DNA of 64,000 bases from Kangiella aquimarina DSM 16071. GTDB lineage: Bacteria; Pseudomonadota; Gammaproteobacteria; Enterobacterales; Kangiellaceae. Where the stretch lies: the NCBI RefSeq assembly GCF_000374105.1, contig NZ_KB893650.1, forward strand, positions 242,862 through 306,861. The letters are read 5' to 3'. How positions within the stretch are numbered: the stretch's first letter is position 1; each line of letters begins with the position of its first letter. Positions 7,582-57,941 of the stretch are shown here, in pieces. Made by a program: the position numbers and the translations under genes. The notes below the pieces were generated by a model. It ran no database searches. It saw only the letters and a program-made list of their open reading frames with translations, and was not told the DNA's origin.

Positions 7582-7638
7582 TTACTCCACTCATTTCTCC
7601 CTCTCAATACTCACCAACAATTCCTTAATCTAATTCAT

Positions 7639-7696: not shown

Positions 7697-7917
7697 TTTC
7701 GCCCCTCGGCGAGTTACTTTTCTTGCGTGGTCAAGAAAAGTAACCAAAAGAAGACCACCCCGAGATTGAGGCTTCACTTCGTTCAACTTCCTTCGCTACT
7801 GCCAAAATACTTAACGTACCAGAATTTACATCACATCCTTGTGCTGAAAATTCTTATCAAAATCATCCACGATTTTGATTACTATATTTTGTACGTAACT
7901 CAGCTCAATCTAAGGGG
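7697..7917 (+). repeat. Structured 221-bp element, copy 1
   Basis: First of four intergenic copies (others at 39318-39537, 45369-45589 and 52875-53095). Stems in order: CGCC-CCTC-GGCG at the left end; ACTTTTCTTG/CAAGAAAAGT with loop CGTGGT; loop GTGGTC pairing with GACCAC downstream; CACA-TCCT-TGTG; and ATCAAAATC/GATTTTGAT (7856-7879). It ends with CTCAGCTCAAT and GGGG. An open frame across part of it is not preserved in the other copies, so it is treated as non-coding. It lies between two convergent genes. Confidence 0.85.
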
Positions 7918-19825: not shown

Positions 19826-19872
19826 AGAGTCCCTCCTTTCTTAGAATTATATGAATTTACACCCAGTTATAG

Positions 19873-20015
19873 ATTCCCGCCTTCGCGGGAATGACGTGTC
19901 GGAGAATATAATGCTGTAGTTTACTTCTTTCTTACTCTTCAACTAACGAAAACTCTAATGCATAACCCTCTTAAGCAACCACGCAAGCTTGTCATTCCCG
20001 CGTAGGCGGGAATCC
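19873..20015. repeat. Bipartite inverted-repeat element, 143 bp
   Basis: A CATTCCCGCG-type palindrome in reverse orientation (19873-19895) and another in forward orientation (19991-20015) bound about 95 bp of AT-rich DNA. The same layout, with matching edge sequence (TGTCGG on the inner left, AAGCTTGTCATT on the right), is seen at 27732-27880. This looks like a miniature inverted-repeat mobile element. No coding capacity is seen inside. Confidence 0.75.
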
Positions 20016-27602: not shown

Positions 27603-27731
27603 TTGGGTGATTGATTCTAAACAAGTACCTGGATCACCTAGTCGATGGCTCGTTTAACCAAATATCGTCAGAGACAGACAAGATCGAAAATCATACTTCA
27701 CCGGATACTTCTGTAATAATAGCAACTTTTT

Positions 27732-27880
27732 ATGGATTCCCGCCTTCGCGGGAATGACATGTCGGTGAAGATATTGCTCTGCGTTTACTTTGGTAATACT
27801 TAACGAGATGAAGACTATAAATGTAACCGAGAGATGAACTAACTAATAAGCTTGTCATTCCCGCGTAGGCGGGAATCTAT
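27732..27880. repeat. Bipartite inverted-repeat element, 149 bp
   Basis: Same organisation as 19873-20015: a reverse-oriented CATTCCCGCG palindrome at 27732-27758 and a forward one at 27854-27880. Matching edge sequences are present but the middle is different. It lies 35 bases from the GIY-YIG gene stop. Confidence 0.75.
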
Positions 27881-39317: not shown

Positions 39318-39537
39318 GCCCATTTGAATTGAGCTAAGGAACTTTTTGGTCATAGTAATTTGAATCTGGACGATTCAAATAGCGAAATTCGGGCCAGGGA
39401 TGGAACGTATTTCGCGGTACGTTATGAACAAACAGTTTTGAAGGTAATCATTCGAAGAATGATCTCAATTCACGGGTGGTCTTCTTTTGGTTACTTTTCT
39501 TGACCACCCAAGAAAAGTAACTCGCCAAAAGGCGAAA
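39318..39537 (-). repeat. Structured 220-bp element, copy 2 (inside the ubiC-ubiA gap)
   Basis: Read on the minus strand: TCGCC-TTTT-GGCGA, ACTTTTCTTG/CAAGAAAAGT with loop GGTGGT, GGTGGTC pairing with GACCACC, a CCA-TCCC-TGG stem and TTTGAATC/GATTCAAA. It also carries ATCATTC-GAA-GAATGAT, a hairpin shared with copy 3. It lies between two genes that are normally adjacent, so it may affect ubiA expression. Confidence 0.85.
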
Positions 39538-45368: not shown

Positions 45369-45589
45369 CCCCTTATATTGAGCTGAGGAGTTCTCAAGTT
45401 ATAGCAATCAAAATCGTGGATGATTTTGATAGTAAAATTCAGGCCAAGGAAGGCCTGTATTTTATGGTGCGTTAAGTGGCTTGAGAGCTTCGAAGGCAGT
45501 CATTCGTTGAATGACCTCAATATCGGGGTGGCCTTCTTTTGGTTACTTTTCTTGGCCACGCAAGAAAAGTAACTCGCTGATTAGCGAAA
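45369..45589 (-). repeat. Structured 221-bp element, copy 3 (elaA-tdh gap)
   Basis: Read on the minus strand: TCGCT-AATC-AGCGA; ACTTTTCTTG/CAAGAAAAGT; loop GTGGCC pairing with GGCCAC, a compensatory change from GTGGTC/GACCAC in the other copies. Then come GTCATTC-GTT-GAATGAC, AGGCC-TTCCTT-GGCCT and ATCAAAATC/GATTTTGAT. It ends with CTCAGCTCAAT and a GGGG run. Confidence 0.88.
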
Positions 45590-52874: not shown

Positions 52875-53095
52875 TTTCGCTACTCAGCGAGTTACTTTTC
52901 TTGCATGGTCAAGAAAAGTAACCAAAAGAAGACCACCCCATGATTGAGGTTTCACTTCGTTCAACTTCCTTCGTATCCACCAAGCCACTTCACGCACCGT
53001 AAAATACGTTCCATCCCTGGCCCGAATTTTACTATTCAAAACTTCCTGTTTTGAATTGCTATGTCTTGGCTTCTACTCAGCTCAATCAAAAGGGG
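52875..53095 (+). repeat. Structured 221-bp element, copy 4 (thi cluster)
   Basis: TCGCT-ACTC-AGCGA; ACTTTTCTTG/CAAGAAAAGT; loop TGGTC pairing with GACCA; CCA-TCCC-TGG; ATTCAAAAC/GTTTTGAAT; right end CTACTCAGCTCAATC and GGGG. In sequence it is closest to copy 1 at its left half (shared GAGGTTTCACTTCGTTCAAC-type segment) but different in the inner stems. Confidence 0.88.
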
Positions 53096-53173
53096 TTATT
53101 GGAGCACTCCTGCACGTTTGAACTTATCTACAACAACTTTATAAATCCCATTTACCCGCTAAACAAATGCACC

Positions 53174-53284
53174 AAATTAATTCTTAGCACTTGTTAAATC
53201 GTCTAAGCTAAGTTGGGGCGCGGCAAGATTGATTCTTGGAGCAGGAATTTGCTCATGACAAATGACGGTGACAAGAATTAATTT
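53174..53284. repeat. 111-bp segment bounded by a 12-bp inverted repeat
   Basis: AAATTAATTCTT at 53174-53185 and AAGAATTAATTT at 53273-53284. Smaller matching pairs (CTTGT/ACAAG, CGTC/GACG) lie just inside, so a long imperfect hairpin could form. Confidence 0.5.
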
Positions 53285-53344
53285 ACACTTCTGAATCAAT
53301 ACCCTTACCATAAAACAAAAATAGCTAAACAAGTACGCGGCAAA

Positions 53345-53405
53345 AAACAGTGTTCCAGAGGGAGTTTACTTTAGTAAATGACCTTGCAGGACACTGTTTT
53401 TAACA
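53345..53405 (-). terminator. Long hairpin terminator after thiS
   Basis: On the minus strand AAAACAGTGT pairs with ACACTGTTTT; an inner TTTACTAAAGTAAA palindrome folds within the loop, and T6 follows. It probably ends the thiC-thiO-thiS transcript before thiG. Confidence 0.75.
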
Positions 53406-53430
53406 AAGTAATTGTGACGATTTTTTTGTT

Positions 53431-56635: not shown

Positions 56636-56667
56636 CTACATTAGATCAATAGATAGGTTGTGCATTA

Positions 56668-56779
56668 CTCTTCCCTACGCCGATGCGAGTCGGATCAGGT
56701 TATACGGGTTTGCTTGCGCATCTCAGCTCCTGAAATGATGTTGCTATGTAGCAACAACTTCAGGCGCACCCCGAGAGTT
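56668..56779 (-). promoter_or_regulatory. TPP riboswitch (THI element)
   Basis: On the minus strand, CTCGGGGTGC, GAGCTGAGAT, ACCCG, AACCTGATC and GGCGTAGGGAAGAG appear in the consensus order of the thiamine-pyrophosphate aptamer, with a variable P3a hairpin (GTTGTTGCTA/TAGCAACA). It ends about 84 bases before thiC and should repress the thiC-thiO-thiS unit when TPP is plentiful. The later thiG-thiDE unit has no riboswitch visible. Confidence 0.97.
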
Positions 56780-56868
56780 GCTCGAATTATACACATGCTA
56801 AGCCATAAATTCCTAGCCCCTATTTCTCGGTCTTTTTCGCAGTCTTTTCCTTTGTCTTTTTATTCAGA

Positions 56869-57446: not shown

Positions 57447-57915
57447 AATTTTCCTCGTCTGAAATCAAAATGTGTCAACGACCTTATTCGTTGCTCATTT
57501 ACAGACTAGCAAAGAGTGATATTTCAAATTGTTACTTTGAGTGATAGGAATTAACGATAAATCGGTACTTTCAATTAATTTTCGCTATAACCTTAAGTTA
57601 TTGAAATTTAAGGATTATTTTTATAGACGACATTCGACGAGTTTCATTTATATTTATACAACATGCTTTGCATGCCTATTTTATTAACTTAACTTATTGA
57701 TATTAAATGAAATTTAATTTTTTTAATTTTATTTATTTTTTCCTTTTTGGCGGCAAAATGGAATAAAAGGAGAAATTCACTTAACTTGTAGCTAAATGTA
57801 TCCAATATCAGGCAAACTGATGTTAATTACTCATATTTTCTAGCTTTTTCCATTTTGCCTACCGATTTGCAAATTTGTTTAGAATTGGAACTTATTTTAA
57901 TTCCTTTACCTTCCC
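57447..57915. other. AT-rich intergenic region
   Basis: About 470 bases without a gene. Includes a 12-bp inverted repeat GGCAAAATGGAA (57752-57763) and TTCCATTTTGCC (57848-57859) 84 bases apart. Nothing else was recognised. Confidence 0.6.
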
Positions 57916-57941
57916 GTCATTCCCGCGAAAGCGGGAATCCA
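57916..57941 (+). repeat. Solo CATTCCCGCG-type palindrome
   Basis: GTCATTCCCGC-GAAA-GCGGGAATCC, the same unit as at 7639 and in the two bipartite elements. Confidence 0.8.

Follow-up and report, generated by a model that had tools for sequence, protein, structure and literature searches.

A dispersed intergenic element of Kangiella that contains the TwoAYGGAY RNA core and a pseudoknot with a candidate triple helix

Four intergenic gaps in a 64,000-nucleotide stretch of the Kangiella aquimarina DSM 16071 genome (the whole stretch analysed, termed the window) carry copies of a sequence of about 220 bases. The copy at positions 45369–45589 raises the question of what this element is, on which strand it acts, and how it spreads and is kept. 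The original prediction listed four copies of the same length whose stems keep pairing while the bases change. All four are present with those positions and lengths, and they align end to end (Table 1).

The element is intergenic and multicopy, with ~16–20 copies in the 2.68-Mb Kangiella genome (three contigs). A DNA search of this genome gave 20 matches at E ≤ 0.001, about 15 of them full or near full length. The same search found matches in 16 of the 19 other Kangiella genomes, at 2–25 per genome, and none in the remaining three. A total of 115 distinct copies was collected, which form 59 clusters by flank.

Table 1. Copies of the element in the window and parts of the copy at 45369–45589 (window positions; strand is that of the RNA-like sequence).
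Feature	Position	Strand	Details
Focal copy	45369–45589	+	Flanked by genes for a GNAT acetyltransferase and a zinc-dependent alcohol dehydrogenase, both on the − strand; listed on the − strand in the original prediction
Outer stem (helices 1–2)	45369–45372	+	CCCC, pairs with GGGG 45525–45528; 90.4% and 99.8% paired
Outer stem, continuation	45375–45382	+	ATATTGAG, pairs with CTCAATAT 45516–45523
Hairpin, loop GUGGAU (helix 6)	45407–45430	+	GGA 45418–45420
Hairpin, loop AAGGAA, A-N-GGA motif (helix 7)	45433–45464	+	GGA 45448–45450
Small hairpin GUCAUUC/GAAUGAC (helix 8)	45499–45515	+	Two-sided change in 7 of 7 pairs
Pseudoknot strand GUGGCC (helix 9)	45528–45533	+	Pairs with GGCCAC 45554–45559, the loop of the long hairpin
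Pyrimidine linker CUUCUUUU	45533–45540	+	Proposed third strand on purine arm 45562–45568
Long hairpin P2 (helix 10)	45542–45573	+	GUUACUUUUCUUG 45542–45554, loop, CAAGAAAAGUAAC 45561–45573
Terminal hairpin UCGCU-GAUU-AGCGA (helix 11)	45574–45587	+	96.9% paired
Copy 1	7697–7917	−	Convergent neighbours: a 2-hydroxyacid dehydrogenase gene (+) and an ORF of unknown function (−)
Copy 2	39318–39537	+	Between chorismate lyase and UbiA prenyltransferase genes
Copy 3	52875–53095	−	Upstream of thiG, thi operon

Covariation in a larger alignment had been named beforehand as the test of the predicted fold. An alignment of 52 non-orthologous Kangiella copies in the RNA-like orientation, with a consensus structure that includes the pseudoknot described below, shows strong covariation. 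Pairing is found in 95.0% of 4090 cells (81.1% in shuffled alignments), two-sided changes are found in 55 of 80 pairs (shuffled mean 36.8), and the number of cells with such changes is 575, compared with 172 in the shuffled alignments. The covariation score is 0.398 versus 0.156 shuffled, and none of 500 shuffles reaches any of the five measures. The shuffles ignore the relatedness of the copies, but controls in which the partners are slid by 1–3 columns correct for it, and these pair in only 35–43% of cells; the effect is large.

The stems of the original prediction are therefore real and covary. One 10-bp stem, ACTTTTCTTG/CAAGAAAAGT, had been considered invariant, which holds among the four window copies only. 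Elsewhere it is replaced by ACTTTCTCTTG, CCTTTTCTTTG, CTTCTTTTTCTTA and others, with compensation, as 10 of 13 pairs change on both sides. In the individual helices, two-sided changes occur in six of nine pairs in helix 6 (99.8% paired), in eight of 12 pairs in helix 7 (97.2%), in four of four pairs in helix 9 (93.7%) and in 10 of 13 pairs in helix 10 (96.0%). The terminal hairpin is missing from some Kangiella copies.

While the stems change, each GGA base of the two hairpin loops is 95–100% conserved in 59 copies: 95–98% in the GUGGAU loop and 98–100% in the AAGGAA loop, where the preceding A is conserved 100% and the N is variable. At least two GGA loops are present in 52 of the 59 copies, and the two GGAs are spaced 27 or 31 nt apart.

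These loops lead to a known name. No named family had been recognised at the outset, which was incorrect for the core of the element, since this is Rfam family RF01731, TwoAYGGAY. An Rfam search gave 48.5–51.0 bits for three of the four window copies (gathering score 43), and the fourth copy (52875–53095) gave 42.3 bits in the genome search, just below the cut-off. The whole genome has 17 matches, 14 of them over the cut-off. An Rfam hit to a known element was what the original prediction itself had said would remove the novelty, and part of the novelty therefore goes. The element has the two AYGGAY-like hairpin loops inside a covarying outer stem that define the family, with strict AYGGAY in only part of the copies and loops of the form ANGGAN/NGGAN here. 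The RF01731 model, typed as cis-regulatory by Rfam, has the same strand and the same two GGA-loop hairpins inside a long outer stem; however, it stops at the outer stem and covers about two thirds of the dispersed, multicopy element found here, which also has a pseudoknot module and the terminal hairpin.

TwoAYGGAY was described in 2010 (Weinberg 2010, PMC2864571) and was proposed to bind CsrA in 2014 (PMC4333381). The papers found to name RF01731 or TwoAYGGAY treat the family as an orphan. One copy of the CsrA gene is present in the Kangiella genome. The exposed GGA loops and the proposed CsrA target are reminiscent of the CsrA-sequestering RNAs CsrB, CsrC and RsmX/Y/Z, but the element has two GGA loops and not many, numerous dispersed copies and an additional pseudoknot. 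Typical Csr sponges carry many GGA loops (PMC11882849). In contrast to RNAs of the CsrB/RsmZ type, no promoter of their own and no classical terminator was seen for the copies, and the papers on Csr RNAs that were consulted do not describe the element. That CsrA binds the element in gammaproteobacteria is a prediction from the loops, and is regarded here as only slightly less probable than its opposite.

The RF01731 match is on the strand opposite to the one originally listed, and other properties point the same way. The consensus energy is −119.6 for the RNA-like strand and −106.7 for the other; wobble pairs number 50 on the RNA-like strand and 28 on the other (p = 0.017); and 40 of 52 copies have U-G at one particular pair. 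Together with the direction of TwoAYGGAY, these favor an RNA on the opposite strand, and several of these signs also favor RNA rather than single-stranded DNA as the form in which the element would act.

Signals for transcription were looked for around the copies. No promoter-like sites above chance were found near them, and there is no conserved upstream motif beyond CCAATA beside the element end. Most copies have no T-run after the terminal hairpin (present in 6/59). With gene calls made by a simple coding score, the contexts of 57 sites are 23 convergent, 4 divergent and 30 tandem. Within the tandem group the RNA-like strand reads sense at 14 sites and antisense at 16, with no strand bias, and host mRNAs therefore cannot supply all copies.

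The family name, the RNA-like strand, the pseudoknot and the mirror-repeat linker were all missed in the original prediction, and the last two lie in the region that follows the outer stem. The loop of P2 is complementary to the 5–6 nt beyond the linker, and at one position of this helix 9 the pairs G-C, U-A, C-G and A-U are all found in Kangiella. Complementarity of at least 4 nt between loop and segment is found in 90% of Kangiella elements versus 24% when permuted, in 72% of class-wide elements versus 17%, and, among the matches listed from beta-, gamma- and deltaproteobacteria, in 67% of named-genome elements versus 17%; the permuted maximum across the sets is 33%, and the permutations ignore the relatedness of the copies. 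The parts succeed one another as in an H-type pseudoknot (pseudoknot strand, linker, P2 5′ arm, loop, P2 3′ arm), and such a pseudoknot with a covarying second helix is highly probable.

The linker is a mirror image of the purine arm of P2 (a mirror repeat on the DNA) and co-varies with it. The following sets of arm and linker were found: AAGAAAAG with AAAAGAA, AAGAGAAAG with AAAGAGAA, AAAGAAAAG with AAAAGAAA, AAGAAAAAG with AAAAAGAA, AAAAGAAAG with AAAGAAAA, and AAAAAGAG with AGAAAAA. A mirrored match of at least 7 nt is present in 72% of 71 distinct stem/linker combinations, compared with a permuted mean of 37% (maximum 49% in 1000 permutations, which again ignore relatedness). When the commonest stem is left out the values are 70% and 21% (maximum 38%). 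For direct repeats, without mirroring, the value is only 39%. These values are from a register-free test, used in place of an initial test in a fixed register that was noisier.

Read on the RNA-like strand, the linker is a pyrimidine strand that would run in parallel with the purine arm and place U against A-U pairs and C against G-C pairs. This is the parallel Hoogsteen code, the signature of a U.A-U/C+.G-C triple helix. A triple helix of this type in the major groove, within the pseudoknot, is a candidate structure that we consider fairly probable. C+.G-C triplets require protonation.

Related arrangements are known. In telomerase RNA and SAM-II, loop 1 of an H-type pseudoknot occupies the deep groove of stem 2, and in these and in preQ1-II, as here, a pyrimidine-rich first loop matches stem 2 for U.A-U major-groove triplets; the present element differs in being a dispersed bacterial repeat with no link to a ligand or reverse transcriptase. 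ENE elements, which are found in MALAT1, PAN and plant transposon RNAs (and thus also in RNAs of transposable elements), combine a U-rich strand with an A-rich helix and likewise have the U-rich strand in a triple helix near the RNA 3′ end, but they are formed by an internal U-rich loop plus poly(A), in contrast to the pseudoknot topology seen here. No description of the element was found in the literature searched on repeat types and triple helices.

RF01731 matches occur in 24 of 369 gammaproteobacterial genomes, over the cut-off in 16, and several copies per genome are common. At many of these loci the match is accompanied by the hairpin-linker-pseudoknot module. Among the matches listed, the module is also found with other interiors in beta- and deltaproteobacteria. 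In the set examined, the betaproteobacterial elements (Thiobacillus, Gallionella and others) have the module, mostly without GGA loops. The module is therefore wider than TwoAYGGAY, and the superfamily as a whole cannot have CsrA binding as its function. Of 91 named-genome elements among the matches listed, 28 have GGA loops on the RNA-like strand, 23 of them at least two, and one has them on the other strand; this set includes a few Kangiella records. The exact long-hairpin pattern is found in four of 398 genomes phylum-wide, so that the exact hairpin sequence is rare, though the architecture is wider. Plasmids gave two weak records, phages none and IMG/VR two contigs, and the element is thus essentially chromosomal.

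Elements L073, L075 and L086 from Thioalkalivibrio and Thiotrichales show two perfect ANGGA hairpins together with the pseudoknot. As L073 and L075 are below the RF01731 cut-off, the Rfam model is too narrow. Among the matches listed there are also contigs labelled Verrucomicrobia (CAJCJI01; L067, L079, L088 and others) with many copies of the element, which may represent true transfer or a mis-binned metagenome assembly. The proposal that the elements make up a dispersed RNA superfamily of gamma-, beta- and deltaproteobacteria, built on a shared triple-helix pseudoknot module with varied interiors (two CsrA-type GGA hairpins in gammaproteobacteria), with copies under selection and sites that turn over, is judged to be evenly balanced.

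Sites do turn over in Kangiella. Presence at all four window sites differs among congeners. G000 and G019 carry the element at the focal site. In G011 and G013 this site is empty, even though the dehydrogenase next to it is 97–99% identical to the window protein. At the site of copy 1 the element is absent in G019. The thiS-thiG gap holds elements that differ from species to species and lie in opposite orientations, and in one species only the terminal hairpin is left. In the chorismate lyase-UbiA gap, the G019 ortholog of the copy has had its P2/pseudoknot module replaced as a whole, with the rest conserved.

Where a copy is shared it is strongly conserved. The median identity of shared copies is 97.3% (17 pairs), whereas their 60-bp flanks are 80% identical and the fourfold sites of adjacent genes are 48–60% identical between G000 and G019; non-orthologous copies show 74% identity. 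The simplest interpretation of these comparisons is that individual copies are under purifying selection. Because of the covariation, and because shared copies are kept far above flanks and fourfold-degenerate sites, the original view that the fold is selected is strongly supported.

Further features were noted. Tail-to-tail inverted pairs of the element, a few tens of bases apart, are frequent (L046, L061, L142, L219, L220, L222, L223, L229), with one member from a divergent subfamily ending in GCTAACTTTAAGGGG. A second repeat family with the core GTCATTCCCGCGAAGGCGGGAATCCA is found in intergenic gaps at 19867–19915, 27730–27778, 57899–57941 and near 7600, the last adjoining the copy at 7697. 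In the gap upstream of thiG (~53100–53430) there is another conserved motif, GTCATTTAC..AAACTCC..TTTTTTGCCGCGTA..TTAGC, which occurs in the thiS-thiG gap of several Kangiella species, either next to the element or in its place. A TPP riboswitch lies upstream of the thi genes at 56655–56783 (−).

The explanation tentatively put forward, with a likelihood somewhat short of even, is that of a dispersed, selected, structured RNA element of ~220 nt that binds CsrA in gammaproteobacteria and has a triple-helix pseudoknot. The 5′ domain, closed by CCCC/GGGG, presents the two GGA-loop hairpins at the 27- or 31-nt distance, a layout suited to one CsrA dimer. The 3′ domain forms an H-type pseudoknot, in which the segment immediately 5′ of the linker pairs with the long-hairpin loop. 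The linker itself, UUCUUUU, would lie in the major groove of the long hairpin as a U.A-U/C+.G-C triple helix, which should make the 3′ end rigid and resistant to decay. If transcribed, the copies together may act as a spread-out set of stable CsrA-binding RNAs, or each as a local CsrA-dependent element.

The copies might alternatively be mainly selfish, the fold of a non-autonomous (MITE- or SINE-like) mobile element serving as the substrate of a transposase or reverse transcriptase in trans. This is unlikely, though it would account for the many copies, for insertions that are polymorphic at orthologous intergenic sites between close species, and for the avoidance of genes and divergent promoter regions (4 divergent versus 23 convergent of 57) with no strand bias. 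However, no target duplication is visible at the empty focal site, where ~60 bp flanking the element on each side are new as well; a Y1 transposase is found in seven and RVT_1 in two of 20 Kangiella genomes, and neither tracks copy number; and conservation of shared copies far above neutral is unexpected for decaying selfish DNA. Particular forms of mobile element were not supported: a REP/REPIN with RAYT, as the Y1 transposase is absent in 13 of the 20 genomes, including four with 15–21 element matches; a MITE, for lack of a target-site duplication at the empty site and since the ends are not inverted repeats of each other; and a retroelement mobilised by reverse transcriptase, given RVT_1 in just two genomes. 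The element does resemble REP/REPIN-RAYT, ERIC, NEMIS and other palindromic repeats in being short, intergenic, palindromic and multicopy, but differs from them in having no RAYT association or target duplication and a much larger covarying fold. Quasipalindrome correction, in which inverted repeats without function are kept matching by template switching, could explain the swap of a whole module between orthologous copies; but template switching makes inverted or direct repeats and not mirror repeats, and under it neither the GGA loops nor the 97% identity of shared sites would be maintained. The covarying mirror repeat and the conserved sites already disfavor this reading, which is very improbable.

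The excess of convergent contexts suggests another role, at gene ends, as a bidirectional transcription terminator or a stabiliser of mRNA 3′ ends. MALAT1 and PAN elements protect RNA 3′ ends, and a triple-helix pseudoknot could do the same here. A U-rich tract follows the GGGG stem, and terminator-like matches are above shuffles (4 versus 0.4 and 2 versus 0.3 expected), but the terminator-like tails are mixed and are not U-runs, most copies have no T-run, and this role leaves unexplained the invariant GGA loops and the insertions upstream of operon genes (thiG, ubiA). It appears quite unlikely. The mirror repeat satisfies the rules for DNA triplexes too, and the element could be a DNA structure, a single-stranded hairpin or H-DNA (mirror repeat, purine motif), e.g. 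a protein-binding or replication-related site. In agreement with this, wobble pairs are rare (1–2% of cells) and no promoter was found. In a control of seven tRNAs, however, G-U pairs were also low at 3.9%, so that wobble rarity is weak evidence for DNA, and that argument was dropped. The wobble asymmetry, the conserved U-G pair, the energy and the GGA loops favor one strand as RNA, and H-DNA of 8+8 bp would be short. Purine-motif H-DNA was rejected, since the evidence for RNA is better matched by a pyrimidine motif on the opposite strand. A DNA structure is given only a small chance.

The literature searched does not describe TwoAYGGAY as one part of a dispersed multicopy element, the pseudoknot module with its mirror linker outside the Rfam model, the occurrence of this module with other interiors in beta- and deltaproteobacteria, or the turnover of copies between species with high identity of shared ones; a search by sequence snippet gave only unrelated viral or histone papers. 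Placed within the larger dispersed element, TwoAYGGAY, an orphan since 2010, acquires a complete anatomy together with a strand, a probable partner protein and a 3′ structure that can be tested. If the triple helix is real, its covariation can be read as a code in which A-U goes with U and G-C with C, and it would be, to our knowledge, the first on a dispersed bacterial repeat. The turnover of sites, together with the conservation of shared copies beyond neutral sites, raises the question of how these elements spread and why they are kept.
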